Positions 9,326 to 28,930 of a DNA stretch of 64,000 nucleotides are shown piece by piece (positions within the stretch are counted from its first letter, which is position 1; each line of letters opens with the position of its first letter). The translations under genes were made by a program, and so were the position numbers. Under the pieces are notes generated by a model. It was not told the origin of the DNA, did not search any database, and saw only the letters and a program-made list of their open reading frames with translations. This stretch comes from Collimonas sp. PA-H2 (GTDB taxonomy: Bacteria > Pseudomonadota > Gammaproteobacteria > Burkholderiales > Burkholderiaceae_D). The DNA lies in assembly GCF_002564105.1 (NCBI RefSeq), contig NZ_PDBX01000001.1, positions 2,604,001 to 2,668,000 on the forward strand. The letters are read 5' to 3'.

Positions 9326-12300
9326 TCAGAAACGCCACAGGATGTTAGCCTTGATGGCGTTGTCCCTTGCCTTGTTGCCGAACTGGCCGGAATAGCCCAG
9401 GCCCAGCGTCACGCTTTTACTGACATCGGCGTCGACTCCGGCCTCCAGCAGCAAGCTGTCGCGCGCCACCGGCACGCCGCTGACGTTGAACGCCGTCGCG
9501 CCATTGCTGCTGAAAGCCAGCCGTGTGACAGGCGTAACGTCGCCGAAGGCATGGCGCCAGCCGACCGTGCCGTATACCGCCGCGGTCGAGCTGGCGGCGC
9601 CAAGGCGGCTGCCGGCCCGCAATCCGAGTGTGGAGAATGTCACCTTCTGGCTTTGGCTGCTGCTGGTCAGTGCTGCCGGGCCACCGCTTTCGCTGAAGCT
9701 GTCGCCATGCACGTTGACATAAGCCAGGCCGGCGAACGGTTCCAGCGCCACCTGGCCGGCGGCGATACCGTAGCCGACCTCGCCGAACACCTGGGTGGTG
9801 TCGGCGTGATAGCTGGCCTTGGTGCTGTCGGCAAAGCTCGGGAACACGATGCTGCGGTCGGCGTCGACCTTGTTGCGGGTATAGGCCCCGCCCATGCGCA
9901 CCCCGACCGCGCCGAACTGCGCGCCGGCATACAGCGCCAGGTGGTAGCTGTCGACCGAGGCCGAGCCGTTGGCGCGGCTGGTGTCGAACGACGAGTGGCC
10001 GATGCCGCCGGCCACGCCGACGCGCCATTGATCGTTCAAGGGGGTGTCGGCGCCGATGATGAAGCCGCCGCCGCTGCGGTCGACATCGGCGCTGCCGTCC
10101 TTGCCGTCAAGCTTGCTCTTGGCGCCATACAGCTGGCCCCACACCACCTGGGCATTGCGGCGCTCGTCCTTGCAGGCATCCTGGGTATTCAGCTGGCTGT
10201 TCGGCTGGGTGGCGCTATCCGCGATGCAGTTAGCCACGCCGCCGCCAGCCAGCGCCGACAGCACGCCGGAACGGGGCGCCGATCCCTGCCGTGCGCGCGC
10301 CGTCACCGCATCGCGCAGATAGCGGCTGTCTTCCATCAGGACGCTATTGGCGCTGGCGTAGATCTCGCCCGACAGGCTGTCGAAGGCCGCTCGCGCCGAG
10401 GCCGGGTCGAGCGAGGTGATGGTGTCATAGATCGTGTTGCCGCCGCCCAGCGTGGTGACGGCGCCGGCCGCGTTGAACTGATTCGGCGTGTTGGCAACCT
10501 GCGGGAACTGGACCTGGTTGCGCGCCAGCTGCAGGAACACATTGTTGGCGTCGTAGCGCAAGCTCGGCGTCAGGAACACCAGGTTGGTGGTGGTGCCGGC
10601 AAAGTTGCCGCTGAGGCCGCCGGTGGCAGTCAGGATGGTGTAGTTGTTGGTCGGCTTGTAGTCGCCGGTGGCGGCAAGAACCTGCACCGTGCCGCCGCTC
10701 AGATTCGCGCTGCCGGCAACGCTGATCAGGTCGGCCTGTTGCGCAGTCGCCTGCACCCGGTAGGTCGATCCCGGATTGAAAGCGGCGTTGCCGGCCACCG
10801 TCAGGCTGCCGATAGGCTGGCCGACGCTGGCGATGGCTGCGGTGCCGCCGCTGTTGACCACCAGTCCGCCTATCGTGCCCGGACCCTGAACCGTGGCGCC
10901 GCTGTTGACGGTCACCGTCGAATTGGCGATCGAGCCGGAGACTGCTAGCGTGCCGCTATTTACCGCGGTAGGTCCGCTGTAGCTGCTGACGCTGCTCAGT
11001 CCCAGTACGCCAGCACCGAGCTTGACGACGCCGCCGCTGCCGCTGATGACGCCGGCGAATGTGGTGTCGTCGGAACGGTTGAAGCTCAGGGTGCCGTTGT
11101 CGATCACATTGCCGCTCAGGCTGCCGGTGCTGCCGCCATTGCCGATCTGCAGGGTGCCGCCGTTGATGGTGGTGCCGCCGCCATAGTTGTTGGCGCCGGT
11201 CAGGGTCAAGGTATCGCTGCCGCCCTTGGTCAGCGAGCCGCTGTCCGACATCACGCCGCCATAGACGCCGCCGCCGTTCACCGTCAGGCCGCCGCTGCCG
11301 AGGTCGATATTGCCGTTGCCGTTCAGGCCGGGTACGGTCACCTGGAAGCCGTTCAGGTTGAGCGAGCCGCCGTTCAGCGCCAGGCTGCCGCTGCCCAGCG
11401 CCGCATTGTTGCCGACAATGATGCTGCCGCCGTTGAGGATGGTGCCGCCGCTGTAGGTGTTGGCGTTGGCCAGGGTCAGGCTGGCGGCGCCATCCTTGGT
11501 CAGGCTGCCGCTGCCAGAGACGACATTGCCCAGGGTCAGGTCGTTGCTGCCGGCGATGGTGAGGCCGGCATTTAGCACTACGGCATTGTTCAAGGTAAGC
11601 GGCACGCTATTGTCCAGCGTCGCTGCGCCGCCGACAGTCAGGGCGCCGCTGCCGATGGCGCTGTTGTTGCCGAGCACCAGTGCGCCGGCGTTGAGGGCCG
11701 TGCCGCCGCTATAGGTGCTGGCGCCGGTCAAGGTTTCGGTGCCCGTGCCTTGCTTGACCAGGCCGCCGCTGCCGCCGACCACGCCGCCAAAGGTTTGATT
11801 AGTCGCGTCGCCAAAGGTCAATGTGTTCGCGCCCAGCGCCACCGTGCTGCCGGCCACGCCGGCCAGCGAACCTATGGTCTGGTTGCCTGCGGCGGAGATA
11901 TCAAAGCCGGCTCTGGCGCCAGCAAGATTCACTGCGCCGCTGGCTGCCAGGCTGCCGCCGGCGCCCAGCACCAGCTGGCCGGCATTGATGGTGGCGCCGC
12001 CGGTGAAGGTATTGGCGCCGCTCAGGGTTTCCGTTCCCGTGCCTTGCTTGACCAGGCCGCCGCTGCCGCCGACCACGCCGCCAAAGGTTTGATTAGTCGC
12101 GTCGCCGAAGGTCAATGCATTCGCGCCCAGCGCTACCGTGCTGCCGGCCACGCCGGCCAGGGAGCCGATGGTTTGATTGCCGCCGGCGGAGATGTCAAAG
12201 CTGGCGCCGAGGCCGGCGATATTCACCGCGCCGCTGGCTGCCAGGCTGCCGCCTGCGCCCAAAGCCAAGGTGCCGGCATTGATTGTAGCGCCGCCGCTAA

Positions 12301-15300
12301 AGGTGTTGGCGCCGCTCAGGGTTTCGGTGCCTGCGCCTTGCTTGACCAGCCCACCGCTGCCGCCGACCACGCCGCCGAAGGTTTGATTAGTCGCGTCGCC
12401 GAAGGTCAGTGTGTTTGCGCCCAGCGCCACCGTGCTGCCGGCCACGCCGGTCAGCGAACCGATGGTCTGGTTGCCTGCGGCAGAGATGTCAAAACCAGCG
12501 CCTGCGCCGGCAACATTCACTGCGCCGCTGGCCGCCAGGCTGCCGCCCGCACCCAGCACCAGCTTGCCAGCATTGATGGTGGCGCCGCCGGTAAAGGTGT
12601 TGGCGCCACTCAGGGTTTCGGTGCCAGCGCCTTGCTTGACCAGGCCGCCGCTGCCGCCAACCACGCCGCTAAATGTTTGATTAGTCGCGTCGCCGAAGGT
12701 CAATGTGTTCGCGCCTAGTGCTACCGTGCTGCCGGCCACGCCGGCCAGGGAGCCGATGGTTTGATTGCCGCCGGCGGAGATGTCAAAGCTGGCGCCGACG
12801 CCGGCGATATTCACCGCGCCGCTGGCTGCCAGGCTGCCGCCTGCGCCCAGGGCCAAGGTGCCGGCATTGATGGTGGCGCCGCCGCTAAAGGTGTTGGCGC
12901 CGCTCAGGGTTTCGGTGCCTGCGCCTTGCTTGACCAGCCCACCGCTGCCGCCGACGGCGCCGCCAAAGGTTTGATTGCTCGCGTCGCCGAAGGTCAGCGT
13001 GTTCGCGCCTAGCGCTACCGTGCTGCCTGCCACGCCGGCCAGCGAACCGATGGTCTGGTTGCCGCCGGCAGAGATGTTAAATCCCGCGCCGGCGCCGGCG
13101 ACATTTACCGCCACCGTTGGCGCCATGCTGCCGCCCGCGCCTAAAGCCAAGGTACCGGCATTGATGGTGGCGCCGCCGCTGAAAGTGTTGGCGCCGCTCA
13201 GGGTTTCAGTGCCGGTGCCTTGCTTGACCAGGCCGCCGCTGCCGCCAACCACGCCGCCAAAGGTTTGATTAGTCGCGTCGCCGAAGGTCAATGTGTTTGC
13301 GCCCAGCGCCACCGTGCTACCGGCCACGCCGGCCAGCGAACCGATGGTCTGGTTGCCTGCGGCGGAGATGTTGAAGCCGGCTCCGGCTCCGGCGACATTC
13401 ACCGCCACGGTCGGCGCCAGGCTGCCGCCTGCGCCCAGGGCCAGTGTGCCGGCATTGATGGTGGCGCCGCCGGTAAAGGTGTTGGCGCCGCTCAGGGTTT
13501 CGGTGCCAGCGCCTTGCTTGACCAGTCCGCCGCTGCCGCCGACGGCGCCGCCAAAGGTTTGATTGGTCGCGTCACCAAAGGTCAGCGTGTTCGCGCCCAA
13601 CGCGACATTACTGCCGGCCACGCCGGCCAGGGAGCCGATGGTTTGATTGCCTGCGGCGGAGATGTCAAAGCCGGCGCCGCTGCCGGCGACATTCAGCGCC
13701 ACCGTCGGCGCCAGGCTGCCGCCTGCGCCCAGGGCCAAGGTGCCGGCATTGATGGTGGCGCCGCCGCTAAAGGTGCTGGCGCCGCTCAGGGTTTCAGTGC
13801 CGGTGCCTTGCTTGACCAGGCCGCCGCTGCCGCCGACGGCGCCGCCAAAAGTATGATTGGCGGCGTCGCCGAAGGTCAACGTATTTGCGCCCAACGCTAC
13901 CGTACTGCCTGCCACGCCAGAGAGGGAGCCGATGGTTTGATTGCCGGCGGCCGAGATGTCAAAACCGGCGCCGGCGCCGGCGACATTCACCGCCGCGGTT
14001 GCCGCCAGGCTGCCGCCCGCGCCCAGGGCCAGCGTGCCGGCATTGATGGTCGCGCCGCCGGTGAAGGTATTGGCGCCGGTCAGGGTTTCAGTGCCCGTGC
14101 CTTGCTTGACCAGGCCGCCGCTGCCGCCGATGACGCCGCCAAAGGTCTGGTTGCCGGCATCGCCGAAAGTCAGTGTGTTGCCGCCCAAGGCCACCGTGCT
14201 GCCTGCCACGCCGGCCAGCGAACCGATGGTCTGGTTGCCGCCGGCGGAGATGTCGAAACCGGCGCCGGCGCCCGCGATATTGACTGCGCCGGTAGCTGCC
14301 AGGCTGCCGCCTGCGCCCAGGGCCAGCGTGCCGGCGTTGATCGAGGTGCCGCCGGTATAAGTATTCGCTGCTGTCAGGGTAGTGGTCGCGGCGCCGTTCT
14401 TCACCAGGCCGCCGGCGCCGGAGATCGCGCCGCCCAAGCCCAGGTTATTGCTGCCGCTCAGGCTCAGGTTGGCGCCGCTGGCCAGCGTAATGCTGTTGCC
14501 GATAGTCAGGCCGGTGCTGCTGTCCAGTGTCGCCGAGCCGCCCACCGCCAGCGTGCCGCTGCCGAGCGCCGTGGCATTGCCCAGCACCAACCCGCCGCCG
14601 TTCAGGCTGGTGTTGCCGCTATAGGTATTGGCGCCGCTCAGCGTCAATATGCCGGCATCGTTCTTGGTCAGTCCGCCGGCGCCGCTGATGAGGCCCGACA
14701 GGGTGAGGCCGTTGGCTCCCTGGACGGTCAGGCCGCCGGCCTGCAGACCGATGCTGTTGCCGACATTGAGTCCGCCGGCGCTGGCCTGGATGGCGCCGCC
14801 GTTGGCCGAGATCGCACCGGCGCCGAAAGATGCGGCGTTGTCGAAAATGGCCAGGCCGCCGTTCAGGGTGGCGTCCTGGAAGGTTTGCGCGCCGCTCAGG
14901 GTCCAGCTGCCGCTGTTCATGCCCAGGTGCTGGAAGTTGATATAGGTGCCGCTGGTGATCGTGCCTGAGCCGCCAGTGCCGCTGCCGGCGCCGCTGGCGG
15001 AATTTTGCAGCAGCAAGGTGTTGTTGCCGCCGGCGCCGCCGTCGATGGTGCCGGTCGCCGCGAAGCCGAGATTGAAGCCGACGACGCTGAGCAGATTGAG
15101 GCCGAGGCTGCCGCCTGCGCTGACCGTTGAACCGGTCACCGCGGTAAAGGTATTCGTACTGCTGGCGCCCATCGAGACGCTGCCGTTGATGGCGCCGGCA
15201 TTGATGAAGGTGTTGCCGGTCCCGGGCGTGCCAGAAGCCTCGAACGCAACGCGGCCGTTGATGGCGCCGCTGCTGGTATTGACGAAATTGACCTGGCCGC

Positions 15301-16000
15301 CGCCATAGGCGGCCACCACCGGCGCGTCCGACGACAGCACCGAGACCCCTAGCAAAGGAGTGCTGCCGATGTTGCCGCTGTTGGAAAGATTGCTGACGCC
15401 GCCGGTGCCGTTCTGCACCGCCAGGGCGACGCCGTTCAGGTTTGGCAGGCTGACGCCAAGCAGGCCGGCGGTTCCTTTCATGGTGCCGCTGTTGTTGACG
15501 CTGACGGTGCTGGCGGCGGCGTTGCCGATCACGGTGCCGGTCGAGAGCAGGCTGCCGACGCCGAGCAGCGAAGGGTCGATGGTGCCGCCGTTATTCAAGG
15601 TGACGTTGTTGCCGGTCAGGTTCATCGCGGTGCCCAGCAGGCCCAGCAGTACGCCTGAGCTGGCGCCGCTATTTACATTGACGGTCAGGTTATTGGCGGC
15701 GCTGCTGAACGAGGGCGCCAGCAGATTCGCGGCGCCGCTGCAGGTGACCGTGGCGCCGTTGGCAGGGTTGGCCGGCGTGCAGGTGGCCCAGGCTGCCGAG
15801 CCATGCAGGGCCAGCAGGCTGCCGGCGGCGAGTCCCAGCAACGCCGGCAGGCGCGAGCGTTGCGGCGCTCCGGCGCCAAGCGCAGGCCCGCTGGATACCA
15901 GCTGGCTGGCAGATCCCTTGCCGTTGGACTTGGCCAGCTCCGACACCACCACCAGCGCACCCTGCGATTTGCTCCACACCACTCGATAACTCTTGCTCAT
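9326..16000 (-). CDS. Giant type V autotransporter with AIDA-like beta-strand repeats
   Basis: A 2224-residue surface protein. The N-terminus has an extended ESPR signal ([24 protein letters not shown]) followed by a hydrophobic core ([17 protein letters not shown]) and cleavage near AWA. The passenger, about residues 70-1900, is Gly/Asn/Thr-rich parallel beta-helix, with many autotransporter-associated beta-strand motifs ([21 protein letters not shown] style). It contains nine consecutive 98-residue repeats (residues about 557-1438). A linker and beta-barrel domain (about residues 1930-2224) ends IKANILWRF, the expected aromatic C-terminus. A CCGGAGAATT ribosome site precedes the ATG. No protease or adhesin catalytic motif is seen. 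A role as adhesin or aggregation factor is inferred. Confidence 0.95.
11687..14332 (-). repeat. Nine tandem 294-bp (98-aa) in-frame repeats inside the autotransporter
   Basis: Each unit runs from G-x-L-x-LGAGGS through [24 protein letters not shown] and [10 protein letters not shown] to GGATINA. Phrases recur at an exact 294-bp period (for example the GTTTGATTAGTCGCGTC block near 11791 and 12085). Units differ mainly in short variable pockets (AATGAVN, APTVAVN, AASGAVN; FDIS or FNIS). This suggests recent duplication and ongoing exchange between units. Confidence 0.93.
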
Positions 16001-17119: not shown

Positions 17120-18046
17120 TCAGCCGCCGTGGCCGGCCGCCAGCCACTCGCGGCGCTGTCCCAGCACGGCGAACAATTCCACAATGATGGCCTTGACCTT
17201 TTGCACGGCGTTGCTGAGCAATTCGGTATCGTGCCAGCACAGCGACAGCTCGCGCGAAAACAGCCGGTGGTCGACCGCGGCCAGCTTCAACTTGTGCTCA
17301 TCCAGTTCGACATGGGCGGCCGACCAGGGCAGGATGGTGACGCCCAGGCGAGCGATGACCGCAGCGAACAGCAGCGCGGTGGAACTAGCCTCGAAACGCA
17401 CTTCGGACGCCAGACCCGCCTCGCTCAAAGCCCAGTCGACGCGGCTGCGGATCGAGTTCGGCGCGCTCGGCAAGATCAGCGGCATGCGCGCCAGATCAGC
17501 CAGCTGCACCGGCGCCGCCGGCAGCGGGAAATCCGGCCAGGCGATCAGGTGCAAGGCTTCGCTGATCAGCCGCTGCGCCGCCACGCCGCGCGTTTCGGCC
17601 GCGTCGGCCACCACCGCCAGCTCGACCCGGCCGCCGCCGATCAGGCCGCCGAGGTCGGCGCTGGGGGCTTCGATCAATTCCAGCACGATGCCGGGAAAGC
17701 GTTCGCGCACCATGCGCGCCAGCGGGATCGCCAGCACCCGCGAGGTGCTGGACGGCATGCCCACCGATACTTTCCCTTGCGGGAATTCGGCATCCTGGCG
17801 CAGCAGTTCGCGCGTGCCGTCGGCTTGCCGCAGCAGCCCGGTCGCATGGCGGTAAAGGGTGAGGCCGGCGGCGGTCGGCGCCACGCCGTGCACGCTGCGT
17901 TCCAATAGCTGCATGCCAAGGTCGCGCTCCAGGTTGCGCATCTGCTGGCTGACCGCCGGCTGGGCGATATGCAGCGCCTCGCTGGCGTGCGTGACGTTGC
18001 CGCATTCAACCACTTTGACGAAATACCGCAATTGACGCAAATCCAT
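17120..18046 (-). CDS. LysR-family regulator, Nac/CynR-like
   Basis: A 308-residue LysR transcription factor. The N-terminal HTH (MDLRQLRYFVKVVECGNVTHASEALHIAQPAVSQQMRNLE, quoted in outline) strongly resembles Nac: RYFVKVV, LHIAQPAVSQQ. The effector domain spans about residues 90-300. It is divergent from the MFS/CoA-transferase/decarboxylase operon starting at 18230 and very likely controls it; the inducer would then be the imported acid or its CoA ester. The intergenic region contains an ATA-N9-TAT element. Confidence 0.9.
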   Translation of the reverse strand: MDLRQLRYFVKVVECGNVTHASEALHIAQPAVSQQMRNLERDLGMQLLERSVHGVAPTAAGLTLYRHATGLLRQADGTRELLRQDAEFPQGKVSVGMPSSTSRVLAIPLARMVRERFPGIVLELIEAPSADLGGLIGGGRVELAVVADAAETRGVAAQRLISEALHLIAWPDFPLPAAPVQLADLARMPLILPSAPNSIRSRVDWALSEAGLASEVRFEASSTALLFAAVIARLGVTILPWSAAHVELDEHKLKLAAVDHRLFSRELSLCWHDTELLSNAVQKVKAIIVELFAVLGQRREWLAAGHGG

Positions 18047-18229: not shown

Positions 18230-19552
18230 ATGGACAAGGCAATCGGATTAACCGCGCCCGGCGTCAAGCCGCGGCGCACGCCTCTCAGCCGCGAGCAGAT
18301 CGGCGGCTTCTGGGCGGTATATTCAGGATGGGTGCTGGACGGCGTCGATTCGGTGATCTATGCGCTGGTGCTGATCCCGGCGCTGACCGAGCTGCTGCCG
18401 GCCTCGGGCATCGCCGCCACCCCTGGTAATCTCGGCATGTACGGTTCCATCCTGTTCGCGCTGTTCCTGATCGGTTGGGGTTTGTCTTTCATCTGGGGAC
18501 CGCTGGCCGACCGCTTCGGCCGCGTCAAGACGCTCGCCGCCAGCATCCTGATCTATTCGGTATTCACCGGCGCCGCCGCCTTTGCCCACAATGTCTGGGA
18601 GCTGGCGGCCTTCCGCCTGATCGCTGGCATCGGCGTCGGCGGCGAGTGGGCGCTGGCCGGCACCTATGTCGCCGAAAGCTGGCCGGAGGACCGCCGCAAG
18701 ATGGGCGCCGGCTATCTGCAGACCGGCTACTACGTCGGCTTCTTCATCGCCGCCTGGCTCAACTATACGATAGGCGCCACCTACGGCTGGCGCGCCATGT
18801 TCCTGTGCGGCCTGGCGCCGGCGCTGCTGGCGATCTTCACGGTACTGCGGGTGAAAGAGCCGGGCCAATGGCGCAAGGCCGCGCATGGCAAGGTGGCCGC
18901 CAGCGCGAGCGTGGTGCGCAGTTCTTTCCGCGAGCTGTTTGCGCCGGCCTTCCGGCGCCGCACCATCACCAGCGCTTCGCTGGTCGGCGTGGCGGTGATC
19001 GGCTTGTGGGCCGGCTCGGTGTACGAAGCCAGCGCAGTGGTCACGCTGGCGACGCGCGCCGGCGTCGATCATATCGGCTCCGTGCACCTGGCCTCGATCG
19101 GCGCGGCGATCCTGTCGTTCGCCACCATACTTGGCTGCCTGGCGGCGCCCTGGCTGGCCGAGCGGCTGGGCCGCCGGATGGCGCTGGGCATCTATTTCGC
19201 CGGCATGGCGTTCTCCATCGTATTCGCCTTCGGCTGGGTGTTTTACCTGGCGGACGGTCTCAAGCTGTTCATGGTGTCGCTGCTGTTCCTGGGTTTTTTC
19301 GGCGGCAATTTTGCGATCTTTTCATTGTGGCTGCCGGAACAGTATCCGACCCGGATACGGGCCACCGCGTTTGCTTTCAACGCTTCCATCGGCCGCTTCC
19401 TCGGCGCCGGCGTCAACTTCCTGCTGGCGGCGGCGATCCAGTGGCAGGGTTCGCTCGGCCTGCCGGTGGCCTGGACCGCGGCGGCTTTCGTGGCCGGCTT
19501 GCTGATCCTGCCGTTTGCGGTGGAAACCCGCGACCAGCACCTGCCGCAATAA
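18230..19552 (+). CDS. MFS transporter, sugar/acid:H+ symporter type (metabolite uptake)
   Basis: A 440-residue, 12-helix major facilitator. The motif-A loop GPLADRFGRVKTLAASI is between helices 2 and 3, with a second one at AERLGRRMALG. GVGGEWALAGTYVAESWPEDRR is typical of the sialate/aromatic acid:H+ symporter and metabolite:H+ symporter groups. A CAAGGAGACAAGC ribosome site precedes the ATG. It is the first gene of an operon with a CoA-transferase (35 bp downstream) and a decarboxylase-like crotonase, so it probably imports their organic acid substrate. Confidence 0.9.
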   Translation: MDKAIGLTAPGVKPRRTPLSREQIGGFWAVYSGWVLDGVDSVIYALVLIPALTELLPASGIAATPGNLGMYGSILFALFLIGWGLSFIWGPLADRFGRVKTLAASILIYSVFTGAAAFAHNVWELAAFRLIAGIGVGGEWALAGTYVAESWPEDRRKMGAGYLQTGYYVGFFIAAWLNYTIGATYGWRAMFLCGLAPALLAIFTVLRVKEPGQWRKAAHGKVAASASVVRSSFRELFAPAFRRRTITSASLVGVAVIGLWAGSVYEASAVVTLATRAGVDHIGSVHLASIGAAILSFATILGCLAAPWLAERLGRRMALGIYFAGMAFSIVFAFGWVFYLADGLKLFMVSLLFLGFFGGNFAIFSLWLPEQYPTRIRATAFAFNASIGRFLGAGVNFLLAAAIQWQGSLGLPVAWTAAAFVAGLLILPFAVETRDQHLPQ

Positions 19553-19587
19553 CCGTCATAGCTGTCATTACTTGACTGGAGAAACAG

Positions 19588-20826
19588 ATGCAAGCACTAC
19601 AAGGTATCAAGATCGTCGACCTCAGCCGTGCGCTGTCAGGGCCATTCTGTTCCATGGCGCTGGCCGACATGGGCGCCGACGTGATCAAGGTGGAGTCGGG
19701 ACCGTGCGGCGACATGAGCCGCAGCTGGGGGCCGTTCGACCGCGGCGTCAGCACTTACTATCTGTCCTGCAACGCCAACAAGCGCGGCATCTGCCTCGAC
19801 CTGCGCAATGCGCAGGGGATGGCGGCGCTGCAGCGGCTGATCGATGGCGCCGACGTCGTCATCGAGAATTTCAAGCCGGGCACGATGGCCGCCATGGGGC
19901 TCGGCTACGAAGTGCTGAGCGCGCGCAACTCGCGGCTGGTGATGGGCAGCATCAACGCCTTCGGCGTCGACGGTCCGCTGAGCGGCTGGCCCGGCTTCGA
20001 CCAGATCGCCCAGGGCTATTCCGGCATGATGAGCCTGACCGGCTTTGCCGACGGCGATCCGACCCGCACCGGCACCGCCATCGGCGACATGAGCTCCGGC
20101 ATGTGGCTGGCCATGGCGATCCTGGCGGCGCTGCTGGAGCGTCAGCGCACAGGACGCGGCCAGCATGTCGGCAGCTCGCTGCTGGCCAGCCTGGTCGGCT
20201 TGCTGAGCGTGCATGGCCAGCGCTATCTTAGCCTGGGTGAAATCCCGCAACGCAGCGGCAACGCCCACTCCGTGATTGCACCCTACGGCGTCTTCGAAAC
20301 CGCCGACGGCCCGCTCAACCTGGCGCCGATCACCGCCGACATGTGGCTGCGCCTGTGCCAGCTGCTGGAACTGCCGGCGCTGCCGGACGATCCGCGCTTC
20401 GCCAGCAACGAGCTGCGGGTCGCCCATCGCGACGAGTTGAAGGTCTTGCTCGAAACGCGCCTGAAAACGCGCAGCAAACGTGCATGGAGCGAGTTGTTCG
20501 CCGCCGCCGGCTTGCCGGCAGGACCAATCAATACCTTGGCCGAGGTGTTCGCCGATCCGCAGGTATTGCATTGCCGGCTAGTCGCAAGCACGCAGCATCC
20601 AATCCTGGGTGAGCTGCGGCAGGTGGCGACGCCGGTGACCAGCTACGGCGCCGATGCAGGCCCTGCGCTCAGCCGGCGGCCGCCGCCCGCTCTCGGCCAG
20701 CACACCGTGGAGGTGCTGCGGGAAGCCGGCTTCGAGCAGGCTGCGATCGACGCGCTGCTGGCCTCCAAGGCGGCGCATCAGGAGGCGGCGCCGGCGACCT
20801 CGGAAGCGCTGGCGGAGGTGGCGTGA
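19588..20826 (+). CDS. Family III (CaiB/BaiF) CoA-transferase
   Basis: A 412-residue CoA-transferase that would move CoA onto a carboxylic acid. The N-terminus LQGIKIVDLSRALSGPFCSMALADMGADVIKVE is a hallmark (shown only in part: DLSRALSGPF). The catalytic Asp is Asp138 in GWPGFDQIAQGYSGMM. IENFKPGTM and RTGRGQHV are also conserved. A GGAGAAACAG ribosome site precedes the ATG. The stop overlaps the start of the next gene, which resembles methylmalonyl-CoA decarboxylase. A substrate such as methylmalonate or another dicarboxylate is therefore suggested, but this is inference. Confidence 0.92.
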   Translation: MQALQGIKIVDLSRALSGPFCSMALADMGADVIKVESGPCGDMSRSWGPFDRGVSTYYLSCNANKRGICLDLRNAQGMAALQRLIDGADVVIENFKPGTMAAMGLGYEVLSARNSRLVMGSINAFGVDGPLSGWPGFDQIAQGYSGMMSLTGFADGDPTRTGTAIGDMSSGMWLAMAILAALLERQRTGRGQHVGSSLLASLVGLLSVHGQRYLSLGEIPQRSGNAHSVIAPYGVFETADGPLNLAPITADMWLRLCQLLELPALPDDPRFASNELRVAHRDELKVLLETRLKTRSKRAWSELFAAAGLPAGPINTLAEVFADPQVLHCRLVASTQHPILGELRQVATPVTSYGADAGPALSRRPPPALGQHTVEVLREAGFEQAAIDALLASKAAHQEAAPATSEALAEVA

Positions 20827-21623
20827 TGAATCCTTCTGATAACGCAGTCACGGTCACCAGCCGCATCATCGAAGAACGGATCGGCCATATCGTCTTCAGC
20901 AATCCGGCGCGCCGCCACGCACTCAGCGCCGATCTGCTGGACGCGCTGGAACAGCGCCTGCTGCAACTGGCCGAACAGCGCGTGCCGGTGCTGCTGCTGG
21001 GCAGCGGCGTCGGAGGCGAAGTCTGGAGCGCCGGCCACGATCTCGGCGAACTGGCGCTGGACCGCGATCCTGTCGCCTACGGCAAGCCGCTGGAGCGCGT
21101 CTTGCGCGCGATACGCGCCTATCCGGGAGTCGTGATCGCCATGGTGTCGGGCTCGGTGTGGGGCGGCGCGGTAGACCTGGCGATGAGCTGCGACCTGGTG
21201 GTGGCGGACCGCAGCGCGCGCTTTTCCATGACGCCGGCGAATATCGGCTTGCCTTACACCACCAGCGGGCTGCTGCGCTTTTTCCACAACCTGCCCATCC
21301 ATGTGCTCAAGGAGATGTTCTTTTGCGCGCTGCCGTTGACAGCCGAGCGCGCGCTGCAGTTCGGCGTCATCAACCGCATGGCCGACAGCACTATGCTGCA
21401 AGCCACGGCGCTGGAAATGGCGCACGGCATCGCCGCCAAGGCGCCGCTGGCGGTGCGCGCGGTGAAGGAGCAGTTACGCATCATGGAAGACATGCAGCCG
21501 CTGCCGGTGCAGGCAATGGAACAGATCGCGGAACTGCGGCGGCAGGCTTGCGCCAGCGCCGATTTCAGCGAGGGACTGGAAGCGTTCAGCGAACGCCGTC
21601 AGCCGTTGTTCCGCGGCGTCTGA
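20826..21623 (+). CDS. Crotonase-fold enzyme, methylmalonyl-CoA decarboxylase-like (ScpB-like)
   Basis: A 265-residue enoyl-CoA hydratase/isomerase superfamily protein. Many stretches match the pattern of E. coli ScpB (YgfG): VWSAGHDLGEL, MVSGSVWGGAVDLAMSCDL (oxyanion hole), FSMTPANIGLPY (the Tyr at the ScpB catalytic position), HVLKEMFF, VKEQLRI and EGLEAFSERRQPLF. The usual hydratase Glu pair is absent, in keeping with decarboxylase chemistry. The ATG overlaps the CoA-transferase stop (TGATG). Products would be propionyl-CoA and CO2 if methylmalonyl-CoA is the substrate. The exact acid is not proven. Confidence 0.85.
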   Translation: MNPSDNAVTVTSRIIEERIGHIVFSNPARRHALSADLLDALEQRLLQLAEQRVPVLLLGSGVGGEVWSAGHDLGELALDRDPVAYGKPLERVLRAIRAYPGVVIAMVSGSVWGGAVDLAMSCDLVVADRSARFSMTPANIGLPYTTSGLLRFFHNLPIHVLKEMFFCALPLTAERALQFGVINRMADSTMLQATALEMAHGIAAKAPLAVRAVKEQLRIMEDMQPLPVQAMEQIAELRRQACASADFSEGLEAFSERRQPLFRGV

Positions 21624-22392: not shown

Positions 22393-23820
22393 TTATCGCA
22401 GCGCCGCGGTTTTCGATCGCGCCTGAACGCGCGGCAAGCATGCTGACGGCCTGGTGGAAAACCACCATAGCAACGCAGCCGCCAGCGCGATGACGATGAC
22501 CATTCCAAGCACGATGTGCAGCGCATGCGCGAACGGCTGCAGCGTCGCCAGCAAGGCGCCGCAAATCGCTACCCCCAATGCCGCCCCTGTTTGCCGCGCT
22601 GAATTCAGCATGGCTGCCGCTATTCCCGCACAGCTTTGCTCGACCGTGCCCATGGCCGGCGCGGTAGCAGCGGGAGAGATGAAGCCGGAAGCCAGACCGA
22701 TCGCCAGCATTGGCAGGATGGCGAACCAATAGGGTGAGCCCGGTTCAGGCAGAAGCATGCCGGCGGCGCCGACGGCATACAGGCAGAACGCCGCGCACAT
22801 CGATGCGCGCGCACCGGACAAGCGGGTCAGGCGGCTGGAAGCCAGGCCGCCGATCGCCACCATGACAGTCATCGGCAGGAACGCCAGGCCAGTCTGCAGC
22901 GGCGCATAACCCAACACCCTTTGATAGTAGAGGCTGAAAGCGAACAGCATGCCGTAAAAGACCAGGGCGGAGACCATGGAGACCAGCGCGGAAGCGGCGA
23001 ACAGCCCGTTGCGGAAGAACGATAGCGGCAGCATGGGCTGCGGCTGCCGTGTTTCGATCCTGAGGAACAGCAGGCCAGCGACGCCGCAGAGGGCAATGCC
23101 GGCGACGATGGGCATGGATTGCCAGCCGAGCACCGGCGCTTCGATTAGCAGCGCAATCAGGCTGCCGAGCGCGACGATCGCCGCCAGCTGGCCGGCAACG
23201 TCGAAGTGGCGCGCACCTGGCGCCCGGTCGCGCGGCAGCGGCCAGGTCAGCCAGATGCCGGTCAGACCGAGCGGCAGGTTGACGAAAAAGATGCTGCGCC
23301 AGCCGAAGCCGTGGATCAGCAGGCCGCCCAGCAGCGGGCCTGAAGCCATGGCGATGCCGCCGCAGCCCATCCACATGCCGATCACCGCGGCGCGCCGGGC
23401 CGGATCGGGATAAGCCTGGTTGATCAGCGCCAGCGAGCAGGGCACCAGCATGGCGCTGCCGATGCCCTGCAGCGCCCGTGCCAAGGCCAGCGTACCGAGG
23501 CTGGGAGCGAAGCCGCACAGCGCCGACGCCAGCGTGAACAGCATGAGGCCGGCCAGGTAGATGTTTCTTGCGCCGAGGCGGTCGCCCAGCGTGCCGCCCG
23601 TCATGAGAAAGCTGGCGAAGCTCAGGGTGTAGGCGTTGACGATCCATTGCAGCCCGCTGACGCCGCTGTTGAGCGTGGCGCCGATCTGCTCCAGGCCGAC
23701 ATTGACGACCGAGGCGTCGAGCAGCACGATGGCGTAGCTGATGCTGGTCGCAGCCAGTATCTTGCGCGCCGGCTGGCCGTCGCCGGCGCGAAAATTTACT
23801 GCGCCAGTGTTCTTTATCAT
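22393..23820 (-). CDS. MFS drug exporter, DHA2/EmrB-QacA family
   Basis: A 475-residue multidrug-type exporter with about 14 membrane helices. The ATG at 23820 was chosen because it has GGAG 7 bases upstream and gives MIKNTGAVNF; a longer upstream frame lacks a site. Signatures: VLLDASVVNVGLEQIGATL, LQWIVNAYTLSFASFLMTGGTLGDRLGAR (motif A region), and motif C-like GPLLGGLLIHGFGWRSIFFVNLPLG. It is monocistronic, with no adaptor protein adjacent, so it probably works alone in the inner membrane. Substrate unknown. Confidence 0.9.
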   Translation of the reverse strand: MIKNTGAVNFRAGDGQPARKILAATSISYAIVLLDASVVNVGLEQIGATLNSGVSGLQWIVNAYTLSFASFLMTGGTLGDRLGARNIYLAGLMLFTLASALCGFAPSLGTLALARALQGIGSAMLVPCSLALINQAYPDPARRAAVIGMWMGCGGIAMASGPLLGGLLIHGFGWRSIFFVNLPLGLTGIWLTWPLPRDRAPGARHFDVAGQLAAIVALGSLIALLIEAPVLGWQSMPIVAGIALCGVAGLLFLRIETRQPQPMLPLSFFRNGLFAASALVSMVSALVFYGMLFAFSLYYQRVLGYAPLQTGLAFLPMTVMVAIGGLASSRLTRLSGARASMCAAFCLYAVGAAGMLLPEPGSPYWFAILPMLAIGLASGFISPAATAPAMGTVEQSCAGIAAAMLNSARQTGAALGVAICGALLATLQPFAHALHIVLGMVIVIALAAALLWWFSTRPSACLPRVQARSKTAALR

Positions 23821-23949
23821 CGCTGTTCTCCAGGCAAGGGGCTGGAGAACAATATACGTGCCTGGCTTGGTCAGATGCTTCGGCGTGTATCGAAGCAAGC
23901 GCACGGCAGGGGCGGCCGGCTGTATAGCGCGGCCGCCCTGCGCTGCCGG

Positions 23950-26900
23950 CTACTCTCCTGGCGTGAAATACTGCCTGCGCTGATGCTGTTCCTGATGCAT
24001 GGGAAACATGGTGGCATAGAACTCGGTCCAGCCGCCCATGCGCACCCGCACCAGGTTGTAGCGCTCCGGATCGTTCGCCGCCGCCTGGTAGGTCGCCAGG
24101 TCGGCGCAGGTGAGGGTGATCAGGTTGGAGCCGGTTTCGCCGCGTGCGTAAGCCTTCACAAAACGCTGCAGCTGTTGCAGCGGGAAATCCTCCTCGATGT
24201 TCATGTCGACCGGCGAGGCGTTCGACAGGCCATATTCGATGGAGTCGACGCGCCAGCTTTTCAGCGCCTGGTAGATGTTGCGGAAAGCCGGCGCCGGCGG
24301 CAGGTCTTGCGGCGCCGGCACCGGCGACAGGTCGGAGGCGATCGGCATGCCGTTGCGGCGGCCGTCGGCCGAGGCGCCGCAGGGCAGGCCGTCGCCGACA
24401 TAGCCTTCGAAGGTGCCGATGCCAGGCGTGATCACGAACTCGGCGCTGCCGTAAGTGCTGGCAATGCCATCCAGCACCGGCTGCAAGGCCGGATGCGGCT
24501 TGCGTATCACATCGACGCAGATGCGCACGGTGTTGTCCATCACCCAGGCGCCGAGGGCGTCGACCTCGGCATCGCCGCTGCCCCACTTGGGCAGCGCCAG
24601 CGCCGCGTTGCGCAGCTCTTGGTAGCGGCGGCCGCGTTCTGCGGCGTCGGCCGGGCCCAGCAGCTGGCTTTGATAGGGCTCGATCATGTTGAAACCCCAG
24701 TCGTTGATCAGGCAGTCGACCAGTTCCGGCAAGGTAGTGAGGGCAGTGGCGGGATCGAACACCAGTTTCTGGATCGCATACAGCGAATCGATGGTGTTGG
24801 AGACGCCGACGCAGAGCGGCGCGATCATGTTGAAGCGGGCGCCGCCGGCGGTCAGGTCGCGCCCGGATTCGGCGCAGCCTTCGATCAGCGCCGACAGCAG
24901 CGGGCTGGGGCAGATGCCGGACAGATTGCCGAAGCCGCCCAGGATCACGTTATAGCTCTGGATAGTGATCCACTCCAGCTGTTGCAGGAAGATCTCTTGC
25001 AGCATCTTGAAGCTGGTGATCTCGGCTGCCGGCGGCGAGCGGAAGGTCTGCTTCAGCCCGCGCAGGTAGACCGGGCCGGCCTCGCCGTAGCAGGCGCCCT
25101 GATTCAGGGTTTGCTCCAGCGCCGTCATCGGCGTCACATTGTTGAAGGAAAAACCGGTGGCGCCGGCCAGCATCGGCTCGTAGCAGCCGTCCGCTGCGTA
25201 GTCGCGCGACCAGCGCAGCGTCACCTGGCTGCCGGAGGCATGCAGTGCTTGGCAGAGGCGGTCGTCCTGGTACAGGATCGGATGGGCGCCGCCGGCCAGC
25301 AGGCATTTGGCGGCCTCGTCCATGATCTCGTCCGGAATGCCGTCGTACACACGCAGCGACAGCGTCGGCGCGTTGACCGGAATCCGTCGCGCTGCCTTCA
25401 GGCACAGCATGGTGACCGGATTGACGCCGCCGGTCGGGGTCGCATCGTCATTGGCGATATAACCGCCGACCGTGATCTGCTGCACCCACTGGTTGATGCC
25501 GCCGCCCTGCGGGAAATTGCCGCCGTAGCCGCAGACGGCGGTGGTGCCGTAGTTGACATAGTCGGTCACCAGGCCGCGGTTGACGAAGGCATTCTCGCCG
25601 ATCTTGAGCCACAGGCAGTCGACGATTTCCTGGGCTCGCTCGGGAGCGATGTTGTCGCGTTCCAGCAAGGGCCACAGGATCTGGTCCAGCCGTCCCAGCG
25701 AGGTCAGCTCGCCCACCAGGTGCAGGCAGCAATGGAAGGAAAACACCAGCTGCACGCCATCCTGGAAACTGAGCGGCGGCTCAGTGCGCAGGCGGCGCAG
25801 GCGGGCGGCGACGGCGCGCATATTGGCGGCGTTTTCCTCAGTGCCGGAGCGCTGTGCGGCGTTGGCGGCGGTTTCTGCCAGGGTAGCCCAGTTGCCCAGG
25901 TATTCCTGCACGCCTTCCAGCGACAGCGCGGCTGAAATATAGAATTCCAGCCGGTCTTTCAAAGCGCTGTCGCCGGGATTGTCTTGCTGCAGCAGCGCAG
26001 TCGCTTCCATCTGCCGCTTCAGCTCGGCGATCAGGCCGCTCAGTCCCAGCCTCACTAGTTTCTGGTAATGCGGCACCACGTGGCCCATCGCCGACCATTC
26101 GTTGAGCTGACCCTTGAGCCAGGCCGCCACGGTTTCATCCTGGTTCAGGTAGGGCACCACTTCCTTGCCGCGGCCGAGGGTGAAATCGGGAATCACGCCG
26201 ACCAGCAGTTCTTCCGGATAGATGCGCAGCAAGCCGTTGTTGCGGGCGATATCGGACTGCGGGCTGGACAGCAGTCCGGCCAGCGTCTTGTGATTGGCCA
26301 GCCCCTTGCGCAGCGCTACTGAAGAAGTCAGCGATGGCGCTTCCACCTCGCTGACCAGTTCCGACAGATGCGGCAGGCGCGGGAAAGGATTGCGCTTGAG
26401 CCAGCCGTCGTTCCAGTGTGAAAACGCGCGTCCCAGCAAGGTCAGCAGGCGCGGGCTGGGCGGATCGCCGGCAAGGTACTTGCCTTCGCTCATCTGGTGC
26501 AGATAGTCCTGACCGTTGTAGAACAGGTAACCGTTCTTGCTGCGTACCTGCCAGTGCGGATCTTCCTGGACATTGTCGATGCCGGCCGCCGGCACGTTCA
26601 GTTCCTGCGCATTCGGCACATACCAGTAGCTGCCGGCGATACCCTGCACCACGCTCATCAGGCGGTCCGCCGGCCGCTCCGGCAGCTCGCCCATCATGTG
26701 CTTGATGATGGTTTCGAAGCGCGGCTGGGCATTGCAGAAGGCGACGAACATCAAGCCTTTCTCGCGCGCGGCGCTGCCCGCGTGTTCCCCGAACGGCAAG
26801 GCCTGGCGCAGCAGCTTGAGATTGTCGCCGTTGCTGTCCAGTACATGCACACGGCGGATATGGGCGTTGTGGTCGTGCTGCGGCAGGATGGCGCCGGCCG

Positions 26901-27498
26901 GATCGCGGCCCAGCATGGCGTCCTGGGCATCGGGCAGCATGTCGCCGATGCTGCTCCATTCGAACAGGAATTTTTGCGTGAAGCCGTAGCAGGCGCCTTG
27001 GAATTCGCCGTCGACCAGGATGTCGGCAGCCAGGCTGACGGGATCGTTTGGATTGGTGATGCCGTCCAGGTAGCGTCCGCCCATCACCTTGCCGTCCGGC
27101 CGTTTGCCGACCGCCAGGATCTCGATCTGCGCCGCCAGCGCTTCCAGCCCGGGGCGCACGCTTTCCATCAGTTGGGCGGCCGCCGCGGCGTTATCGGCTT
27201 TCAGGTAAAGCAGGACGTCGCCGCCGCTGTCGCGCAGCTTGGGCGAGTTGTTCAGCACCGTGCGCGATACCGGAATATCACGGTCGTGCCAGCCGCCCCA
27301 CAAGTTGGGATCGAAGGCCGCCACCAGGCCGGCCTTGGCCGGCGATGCCTTGGCCGCCTGCGCCAGCGAACGGATCAGGCTGAGCAATGCTGCTTCAGTG
27401 GCCTGGCTGTGGTCGTGCAGCGTGATGGTGGCGATCTGGCCGAAAATGGCGCGGGTCAACAGGCCGTACTGGGAATGTTTGATAGCGTCGATAAACAT
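23950..27498 (-). CDS. DyP-type heme peroxidase fused to a glycyl-radical-enzyme (PFL-like) domain
   Basis: An 1182-residue two-domain protein. Residues about 1-300 match the DyP/YfeX peroxidase pattern: Asp145 in GGRYLDGITNP, heme-ligand His213 in NAHIRRVHV and Arg231 in LLRQALPFG, spaced almost as in E. coli YfeX. Residues about 340-1182 look like a glycyl radical enzyme: Cys772 in DGCYEP (thiyl Cys-x-Glu loop) and, near the C-terminus, VRMGGWTEF with Gly1156 at the radical position (usual Tyr replaced by Trp). Start 27498 was chosen for its AAGGA site; an upstream 46-residue extension is possible. No signal peptide and no radical-SAM activase nearby. Divergent from a JmjC oxygenase. Reaction unknown. 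Confidence 0.82.
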   Translation of the reverse strand: MFIDAIKHSQYGLLTRAIFGQIATITLHDHSQATEAALLSLIRSLAQAAKASPAKAGLVAAFDPNLWGGWHDRDIPVSRTVLNNSPKLRDSGGDVLLYLKADNAAAAAQLMESVRPGLEALAAQIEILAVGKRPDGKVMGGRYLDGITNPNDPVSLAADILVDGEFQGACYGFTQKFLFEWSSIGDMLPDAQDAMLGRDPAGAILPQHDHNAHIRRVHVLDSNGDNLKLLRQALPFGEHAGSAAREKGLMFVAFCNAQPRFETIIKHMMGELPERPADRLMSVVQGIAGSYWYVPNAQELNVPAAGIDNVQEDPHWQVRSKNGYLFYNGQDYLHQMSEGKYLAGDPPSPRLLTLLGRAFSHWNDGWLKRNPFPRLPHLSELVSEVEAPSLTSSVALRKGLANHKTLAGLLSSPQSDIARNNGLLRIYPEELLVGVIPDFTLGRGKEVVPYLNQDETVAAWLKGQLNEWSAMGHVVPHYQKLVRLGLSGLIAELKRQMEATALLQQDNPGDSALKDRLEFYISAALSLEGVQEYLGNWATLAETAANAAQRSGTEENAANMRAVAARLRRLRTEPPLSFQDGVQLVFSFHCCLHLVGELTSLGRLDQILWPLLERDNIAPERAQEIVDCLWLKIGENAFVNRGLVTDYVNYGTTAVCGYGGNFPQGGGINQWVQQITVGGYIANDDATPTGGVNPVTMLCLKAARRIPVNAPTLSLRVYDGIPDEIMDEAAKCLLAGGAHPILYQDDRLCQALHASGSQVTLRWSRDYAADGCYEPMLAGATGFSFNNVTPMTALEQTLNQGACYGEAGPVYLRGLKQTFRSPPAAEITSFKMLQEIFLQQLEWITIQSYNVILGGFGNLSGICPSPLLSALIEGCAESGRDLTAGGARFNMIAPLCVGVSNTIDSLYAIQKLVFDPATALTTLPELVDCLINDWGFNMIEPYQSQLLGPADAAERGRRYQELRNAALALPKWGSGDAEVDALGAWVMDNTVRICVDVIRKPHPALQPVLDGIASTYGSAEFVITPGIGTFEGYVGDGLPCGASADGRRNGMPIASDLSPVPAPQDLPPAPAFRNIYQALKSWRVDSIEYGLSNASPVDMNIEEDFPLQQLQRFVKAYARGETGSNLITLTCADLATYQAAANDPERYNLVRVRMGGWTEFYATMFPMHQEQHQRRQYFTPGE

Positions 27499-27669: not shown

Positions 27670-27760
27670 TCCAGTTATATTGCAATATGGAAATATTAAG
27701 TCTAGTCTTTATGCAAAGCAGTCAGGCTCGGGGCTGGTCTCTGAATCGACGGGAGTGATG

Positions 27761-28930
27761 ATGAAAAAGCTGGGAATGGCTGATCTGATCCATCCGCTGA
27801 CGCTGGATGCTTTCATGGCGCGCTACTGGCAAAAGAAGCCCTATGTTGGCCACGGCTCGCCGCAGCGCTTTGCCGAAATCGCCGCTATCCCCGAGCTGGC
27901 CAGCATCGATGCGCTGCTGGAAGCCTGGCGCGGCGAGGCCGATGCCTGGGCCCCGCGCGACACCAAAAACCCGCTGATCAACGCCAGCGCGCGGCAACTG
28001 CCGGCATTCTATGAAAGCGGCTACACGCTTTACCTCAGCAAGGTCGAGGACCACGTGCCGGCGCTGGCACCGATCGCGCGCAAGCTTGAGCGCGACCTCG
28101 GCCTGCGCCAGGATGATGTGTATTTCGAAGCCTTCATTTCCAAAGGCACGGGCTCAGGGTTTCATTTCGATCCGAACGTCACCATCAACATCCAGCTGAT
28201 CGGCAGCAAGCAATGGTGCGTCGCTGAAAACAAGCATCTGGTCAATCCGCATGTCGGCTGGTCGGCCGGCGCCGAGATCAACGAGCATATGCAGCGCTAT
28301 GCGCGCCAGCCGTTCCCGACCCGCATGCCGCCCAATTGCCGGCGTTTCGAGGCCCGGCCCGGCACCTTGGTGTACCTGCATCCGGGTTACTGGCATTGCA
28401 CCCTCAACCACGAGCCTTCTCTCTCGCTGCTGTTCACCATCAATCCGCCGTCCTGGACCGATCTGCTGATGGATGAAATCAGGGACTTGATGCTGAAGCA
28501 TGACGACGGCCGCGAGCTGGCCTTCGGCCTGGCGTCGACTGCCGGCCATGAACAAAAGCGGCAACGCCTGCAGCATCTGATCGAAGCCGCCGGCGAGGCG
28601 GTGGCGCAACTGTCGGCCGACGACTTGCTGGCCGACTGGGGCGGCGTCCTGACTGCCTCGTTTGAACGCAATCCGCAGATCGCCTGCCGCGTCGACGCCG
28701 GCCGCAGCGGCCAGGACGATGTGCTGGTGATCCAATCTGGCCGCAAGCAGGAGCGCAGCGTGCTGGCGCCGGACGCGCGCCAGGTTCTGAAGTGGGTCAG
28801 CGCGCGGAAAAAATCTTTCCGCGGTCATCAGGCCGCCGAGGCAACCACGACCGTGGCGACCACGCGGGTGGCAGAAATACTGGAACAGTTTGCGGATGCC
28901 GGCTTGATCTTGAGGGAGGGTAGTGCCTGA
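27761..28930 (+). CDS. JmjC-domain 2-oxoglutarate/Fe(II) oxygenase, ROXA/YcfD-like
   Basis: A 389-residue cupin-type oxygenase. The iron triad is readable: His135 and Asp137 in GSGFHFDPNVT and His212 in LHPGYWHCT. KKPYVGHG near the N-terminus and INIQLIGSKQW are typical of the JmjC ribosomal-oxygenase group, whose known members hydroxylate Arg or His in ribosomal proteins. Residues about 240-389 form a winged-helix-like C-terminal part. ATG 27761 has GGGAG 5 bases upstream; ATG 27758 is the alternative. It is divergent from the DyP-glycyl-radical fusion across a large palindrome. The substrate may be that protein, a ribosomal protein or a peptide; undecided. Confidence 0.85.
   Translation: MKKLGMADLIHPLTLDAFMARYWQKKPYVGHGSPQRFAEIAAIPELASIDALLEAWRGEADAWAPRDTKNPLINASARQLPAFYESGYTLYLSKVEDHVPALAPIARKLERDLGLRQDDVYFEAFISKGTGSGFHFDPNVTINIQLIGSKQWCVAENKHLVNPHVGWSAGAEINEHMQRYARQPFPTRMPPNCRRFEARPGTLVYLHPGYWHCTLNHEPSLSLLFTINPPSWTDLLMDEIRDLMLKHDDGRELAFGLASTAGHEQKRQRLQHLIEAAGEAVAQLSADDLLADWGGVLTASFERNPQIACRVDAGRSGQDDVLVIQSGRKQERSVLAPDARQVLKWVSARKKSFRGHQAAEATTTVATTRVAEILEQFADAGLILREGSA

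Follow-up and report, generated by a model that had tools for sequence, protein, structure and literature searches.

The window, a stretch of 64,000 nucleotides from Collimonas sp. PA-H2, carries an unusual gene in which a dye-decolorizing peroxidase (DyP) domain is fused to a glycyl-radical enzyme (GRE) domain within one open reading frame (ORF) of 1182 amino acids (protein P0001; 23950..27498, reverse strand). Judged by its sequence, this fusion is real, conserved and widespread. We propose that it is a heme-coupled enzyme of the glycyl-radical type from aerobes, in which the DyP part would do the job of the radical-SAM activase, and we give this proposal an even chance of being right. Its fuller form we place just short of even: a radical-SAM-independent glycyl/thiyl radical enzyme, in which a heme peroxidase, either fused or encoded by the next gene, would use peroxide to start the radical in a barrel of the pyruvate formate-lyase (PFL) type. 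Such a protein would be an aerobic counterpart of GREs, as class I ribonucleotide reductase (RNR) is to class III RNR, found over many bacterial phyla and ascomycetes. That the heme makes the radical would be the simplest account, because most carriers lack the activase, the Gly, Cys and Glu residues do not vary, and a heme peroxidase is either part of the chain or encoded next door. The parts of the gene are as follows.

23950..27498, reverse strand: DyP-GRE fusion gene, 1182 amino acids (P0001), from the ORF, matches to PF20628 and PF02901, and a structure model with a pTM of 0.91
26593..27480, reverse strand: DyP domain, residues 7-302, with Asp145, His213 and Arg231
23953..26478, reverse strand: GRE domain (PFL/diol-dehydratase-type), residues 341-1182
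25174..25188, reverse strand: thiyl loop G771-C772-Y-E774-P775
24028..24042, reverse strand: glycyl-radical loop R1153-M-G-G1156-W1157

Both folds were predicted with confidence by profiles and structure models: the DyP domain shows the ferredoxin-like double barrel of its family and the GRE domain the PFL-like barrel (PF02901 match). The original prediction, made from the letters of the window, had described a DyP and a PFL-like domain in one chain, and had proposed a separate hidden Markov model (HMM) search for each domain and a structure model. Its fusion stands, with intact domains according to PF20628, PF02901 and the model; the residues that it named (Asp145, His213, Arg231, Cys772 and Gly1156) lie at the positions given, and the second half is predicted with confidence to be a PFL-type barrel. 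All three DyP residues are present, and His213 is taken by us, from knowledge of the family, as the proximal heme ligand. Cys772 aligns with the catalytic Cys of glycerol dehydratase 1r8w. The Gly-radical profile PF01228, with its motif RVxGY, has no match in P0001 and sub-threshold matches in two of the three relatives scanned with Pfam; Gly1156 is aligned and invariant at the motif position, but the Y of the motif is W in the fusion. The thiyl loop GCYEP has a single Cys, whereas pyruvate formate-lyase proper has two adjacent catalytic Cys. The NQWxQQ segment is poorly modelled. A chance or artefact ORF was ruled out by the ORF itself, the Pfam profile matches and the homologues, while an AlphaFold artefact is unlikely for the fold, with the HMMs and two models in agreement. 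A viral fold library gave two matches at E <= 0.001, one of them a DyP-type peroxidase and the other without a name.

GREs are a standard example of oxygen sensitivity among enzymes, and the ones so far studied rely on activation by a radical-SAM enzyme. We scored the activase models TIGR02493 and TIGR02494 with their curated cut-offs in 51 carrier genomes, namely the window genome and 50 genomes of further loci. That no radical-SAM activase lies near the fusion had been noted from the window; this is right, and it holds for the genome in its entirety (5.95 Mb, 2 contigs, completeness 100%), in which the fusion itself is the one PF02901 protein. TIGR02494 found no match there at E up to 1e-3 and TIGR02493 none at E up to 1e-6, and no GRE activase is among its 12 radical-SAM matches. 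MoaA, MiaB, LipA, HemN, a PA0069-family protein and QueE scored over cut-off, a SPASM maturase-like protein (L009) and a B12-type protein below it; RimO, BioB, HemW and RlmN were assigned by reading the sequences. Neither an activase over these cut-offs nor an ordinary GRE was found in 45 of the 51 carriers. The other six have an activase over the cut-off of one model, each less than 4 kb from an ordinary full-length GRE. None of eight extra carrier genomes, scored with TIGR02493 only and without a count of ordinary GREs, exceeded its cut-off. Within the window's bacterial family, all four fusion-only genomes were without activase (E <= 1e-6), and nine of ten genomes with an ordinary GRE have the activase beside it. 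Fisher tests (p 5.6e-8 and 0.005), which count related genomes as if each were independent, were given no weight. This apparent absence of the activase from the window genome and most carriers is new here, and since a radical-SAM activase belongs to the definition of the GRE superfamily, the protein is GRE-like and perhaps not a classical GRE.

A second arrangement supports the coupling to DyP. In a sister clade, the GRE of the same family stands alone and the DyP is encoded separately: it is the next gene in 14/14 stand-alone loci that have downstream sequence, its profile match starts between -10 and +79 bases relative to where the GRE ends. Where tested (L057), this DyP is EfeB-like and thus of another kind than the fused one, and Asp, His and Arg are conserved in those next-gene DyPs that were aligned (11 of the 14). 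This predicted two-gene version, a stand-alone GRE with an EfeB-like DyP, is new here.

The residues on which the proposal depends are strictly kept. We aligned 112 fused homologues of at least 1100 amino acids, taken from 121, and a stand-alone set of 117 proteins, which consists of P0001 and 116 of the 120 listed proteins (the best 120 of 411 matches); both sets were chosen without regard to motifs. Cys772, Glu774, Arg1153, Gly1155, Gly1156 and Trp1157 are present in 112/112 and 117/117, so that Cys772 and Gly1156, whose free variation had been named as grounds for doubt, are invariant. On the DyP side of the fused set, R231 was found in 112/112, H213 in 111/112 with one gap, and D145 in 108/112. 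The P775 position is Thr in 116/116 stand-alone GREs. The Trp after the radical Gly, already remarked upon as unusual, is Tyr in 6/6 ordinary GREs from carrier genomes; by this comparison it marks the family, which is new here. In counts that include near-duplicates (155 fused, 129 stand-alone), W934, which is Tyr or Phe in the ordinary GREs, as well as D770, E1031, D1056, E1103, R1151 and E1159 were also specific to the family against these six. A phylogenetic tree set the fusion/stand-alone family apart from the ordinary GREs (SH-aLRT canonical 92) and placed fused (93) and split (99) forms on separate sides, although its canonical rows included two spurious antisense ORFs (L087_canm0, L089_canp2) that were dropped from the later residue comparison.

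The pairing is not unique to the window: homologues with the same fusion, whose collection had been suggested, occur across many bacterial phyla and in ascomycetes. A search of 5.8 billion proteins gave 315 matches, of which the best 120 were listed. The closest of these, 98% identical, is from Collimonas humicola, and around the fusion gene its locus (L021) shares about 93% DNA identity with the window over 14.7 kb. Janthinobacterium, Massilia, Chromobacterium, Andreprevotia, Chloroflexota and Bacteroidota are also among the matches listed, as are many ascomycetes (Xylaria, Fusarium, Chaetomium, lichen fungi), some on contigs millions of bases long. In a sample of 195 genomes of the family, the fusion was found in 4 of 12 same-genus genomes, the window's included, and is therefore an accessory gene. 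A genome scan yielded 65 loci, in Pseudomonadota, Myxococcota, Cyanobacteriota, Actinomycetota, Bacteroidota, Planctomycetota, Acidobacteriota, Gemmatimonadota, Verrucomicrobiota and others. Since the patterns VRMGGW[TS]E and NQW[VG]QQ[IV]T served to find them, motif conservation within them is biased. They comprise 43 intact fused ORFs, 13 stand-alone GREs and nine partial, interrupted or unclassed pieces: a fused locus cut by a contig end (L050), interrupted fused genes (L040, L055, L072), stand-alone GRE tails at contig starts (L074, L076) and pieces without class (L073, L077, L078). Many carrier genera are aerobic; Desulfobacca and Scalindua are among the few exceptions.

How could such an enzyme work? 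In ordinary GREs, a hydrogen of the loop Gly has to be removed by a radical-SAM enzyme, and DyPs with H2O2 form ferryl heme and protein Trp/Tyr radicals. In the mechanism that we infer, H2O2 or a peroxy compound would oxidise the heme, presumed to be loaded in the DyP domain, to ferryl/Compound I. The hole would then travel through the protein to Gly1156, plausibly with the family-specific Trp1157 as its last stop before it, and on to Cys772, or straight to Cys772. The Cys772 thiyl radical in the barrel would abstract a hydrogen from the substrate, with Glu774 as general acid/base. The radical might either be stored on Gly1156 or be made afresh on Cys772 at each turnover, and the low-confidence Gly loop allows either. 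According to the portion of PMC5041501 available to us, H2O2 induces the fungal fusion gene 3-fold, and with peroxyacetic acid the induction is 18.5-fold.

Several observations weigh against this proposal. The Gly loop has low local model confidence (pLDDT) in both models, fused and stand-alone (residues 1154-1164 in P0001). Among the 44 aligned fused proteins (43 loci and P0001), the distal Asp is D in 25, E in 14 and H in 5, and the distal Arg is kept in 39 and lost in 5 (G in 4, S in 1), which leaves the heme-ligand His as the sole universal DyP catalytic residue. The losses include one subclade (L025, L032, L033, L038, L054) with distal Asp replaced by His and distal Arg by Gly or Ser, the heme-ligand His being kept. 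Such replacements weigh against a strict peroxidase step, though by analogy with plant-type peroxidases the distal His may still act as acid/base. Sub-cut-off TIGR02493 matches (E <= 1e-12) occur in 19 of the 45 genomes, the best at 79.8 bits (a frame of 217 amino acids) against a cut-off of 231.75, and TIGR02494 matches at E 1e-3 in 40/50 genomes overall, reaching at most 51 bits in the 45. We take these in the 45 to be probably other radical-SAM proteins and ferredoxins, as a general reading and not a one-by-one identification; an activase of unfamiliar type would escape both models. The absence of an activase is not unique to the DyP-linked family either: the tenth ordinary-GRE genome of the window's bacterial family (G232) has no detectable one, and its GRE-like protein of 809 amino acids (L095:4021-6447) reads GCLG for GCxE and RIGGC for RVxGY, with no DyP fused. 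In Chromobacterium alticapitis (L051 / G036:C157:16587-27239), an ordinary pfl gene accompanied by its activase is located some 6 kb away from the fusion. L073, a 3' fragment of the family, has no DyP within its 15.8 kb. Finally, a putative PFL activase was reported in Chaetomium, in the passages of PMC5041501 available to us.

The alternative that survives best, a genuine possibility though an unlikely one, gives up the glycyl radical: the PFL-like barrel would be a substrate chamber, the DyP heme would oxidise the substrate or Cys772 at each turnover by class I RNR logic, and the Gly loop would be structural. The lack of an over-cut-off activase in most carriers, the poorly modelled Gly loop of both versions and the Trp in place of Tyr all fit it, and a stored glycyl radical would be destroyed by peroxide and oxygen. 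On the other hand, the invariance of Gly1155 and Gly1156 appears stricter than a structural loop needs.

We consider it rather improbable that the DyP only removes or senses peroxide and thereby protects a normal oxygen-sensitive GRE, activated by a radical-SAM enzyme in micro-oxic cells. DyPs do consume H2O2, and this explanation would agree with the Chaetomium report and with the activase in six of the 51 carriers; yet every over-cut-off activase among these adjoins an ordinary GRE, and throughout the aligned sets Trp has replaced Tyr at the radical loop. Were the DyP purely protective, the GRE would have no activator of known type in 45 of the 51 genomes, the window's included, and we therefore favour radical generation over scavenging. 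The original prediction had offered both roles for the heme domain; genome content and the two-gene form argue for the second, and the first is now less favoured.

Activation by an unrecognised maturase, whether a host protein or a further radical-SAM protein in the same cell, seems to us quite unlikely. The genomes hold other radical-SAM proteins, such as the maturase-like L009, whose best profile scored below cut-off, but none was found among the identified recurrent neighbours (DyP, PLD-like, phosphoesterase, HAD-like, DUF2608 and cytidine deaminase; some small clusters are unidentified), and a DyP is the one partner that all classable loci were seen to have in common. Least probable of all is a channelling arrangement of two independent activities, in which an anaerobic-type lyase and the peroxidase share a metabolite, either the substrate of the lyase or its product, and exchange no radical: fusions often channel metabolites, and phospholipase-like and HAD-like neighbours are suggestive of a pathway for lipids or head groups, but both the missing activase and the pairing of two different DyP kinds with the same GRE family would be left unexplained.

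Compared with known systems, the heme-coupled enzyme proposed here is closest, on its GRE side, to the PFL2/glycerol- and propanediol-dehydratase/CutC group (PF02901; 1r8w, 9rco, 5i2a, 5fau). It differs from this group in the Trp for Tyr after the Gly, in the DyP in cis or next gene, and in the 45 of 51 carriers without over-cut-off activase; against TIGR01774 it scored 172.2 bits, the cut-off being 678.2. The closest DyPs are of the YfeX/KpDyP kind (5vj0, 5gt2, 6fks), which is presumably the B type. The fused DyP differs from them in being joined to a GRE barrel and in distal Asp/Arg residues that are not kept in all subclades, and it scored 100.0 against the TIGR01413 cut-off of 100.5. In cyclooxygenase and class I RNR, a metal oxidant derived from oxygen or peroxide starts a protein radical that abstracts hydrogen, which offers an analogy. 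In Streptomyces, the DyP DtpA is needed to mature the radical enzyme GlxA; however, in the passages of PMC4736821 available to us, the hypothesised role of DtpA is the oxidation of Cu(I) during copper trafficking, and the enzyme that it serves is a copper oxidase rather than a GRE. The fusion itself is already in print: in 2016, CcochDyPrx of Chaetomium cochliodes was named DyP-PFL, as a hypothetical protein, with a 2014 encyclopedia entry cited, transfer between bacteria and fungi was inferred, and the significance of the fusion 'remains elusive' (PMC5041501, in the parts accessible). CcochDyPrx has the domain order of P0001, and the fungal proteins among the matches listed are 54-66% identical to P0001. 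The account in those parts of the paper differs from ours in that it is fungal, suggests a radical-SAM activase, and describes no two-gene version or bacterial lack of the activase. Open-licence full texts in PMC yielded this one paper on the fusion, none on a heme-activated GRE and no functional study; the accessible portion of PMC4420034 mentions neither 'glycyl' nor 'formate'.

If the proposal holds, GRE chemistry would not be confined to anaerobes, and a family in aerobic bacteria and filamentous fungi would keep the GRE signature. There would be a further way to start a glycyl/thiyl radical, and peroxide-driven radical lyases might be usable in air. With the lack of an activase in most bacterial carriers tested and with the two-gene version, what was a curiosity becomes a claim, open to test, that heme starts the glycyl/thiyl radical chemistry. 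For some DyPs, the role in the cell, described as largely unknown in the accessible text of PMC11107159, would become directly testable through the fusion and the two-gene pair.

Two genes flank the fusion in the window.

22393..23904, reverse strand: DHA2/EmrB-like efflux pump of the major facilitator superfamily (MFS), PF07690; TIGR00711 below cut-off (208.9 of 230.2)
27760..28930, forward strand: JmjC/cupin-4 oxygenase-like gene, divergent, start approximate, PF08007 at E 5.2e-7

The MFS gene lies just downstream on the same strand, 45 bases apart, and is possibly co-transcribed with the fusion. An MFS-like and a JmjC-cupin gene likewise flank the fusion in the same-genus loci L021, L096 and L097 (JmjC by DNA match, MFS by Pfam on L021 only). 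Recurrent neighbours in relatives are PLD-like (11 loci), phosphoesterase/phospholipase-C-type (7), DUF2608 (7), HAD-like (9) and cytidine-deaminase-like (4), with Pfam run on only a few members and the rest assigned by clustering. PLD-like, HAD-like (DxDDN, TARGH, SDDD) and cytidine-deaminase-like genes are common to the fused and two-gene versions (L032, L033, L047, L054, L057, L060-L062, L064-L068). DUF2608 and/or PF04185 phosphoesterase genes lie directly beside fused genes in gammaproteobacteria and others (L024, L025, L026, L028, L029, L031, L034, L037, L071; Pfam for L024, L025 and L029). The HAD-like family, without a HAD match in Pfam, is presumed to be such from its motifs; comparing its profile with PDB sequences turned up nothing significant (best E 1). 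A 14-locus cluster of apparent trypsin/endonuclease neighbours was rejected, as single linkage had merged a trypsin/endonuclease family with the HAD-like one. A defence-system reading of the neighbourhood (PLD-like, trypsin/endonuclease) was likewise dropped: PADLOC matched some neighbours weakly (best E 1e-10) and none of the GREs or the DyP tested, and no relevant literature was found.

Some features bear on the substrate, and the pocket seems to differ from that of glycerol dehydratase. Relative to 1r8w, whose active-site residues we take to be H164, H281, S282 and D447, the H164 position is kept as H473, the His of GHV, in 155/155 fused and 129/129 stand-alone sequences, near-duplicates included. 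The H281/S282 region reads GELTSLG in P0001, and the D447 position is without counterpart in the alignment. One might guess that a phosphodiesterase, a phosphatase and a radical lyase together would fit head-group breakdown.

Elsewhere, the window genome has a separate, unfused DyP gene (G000:C1:5458996-5459463; a frame of 314 amino acids). At 9326-16000 of the window (reverse strand), a protein of 2224 amino acids with many similar repeats is, by reading only, probably an autotransporter adhesin. An MFS transporter, a class III CoA-transferase and an enoyl-CoA hydratase lie in a row at 18230-21623 (forward strand, Pfam), and with a divergent gene at 17120-18046, LysR-like by reading, they look like a small catabolic operon.

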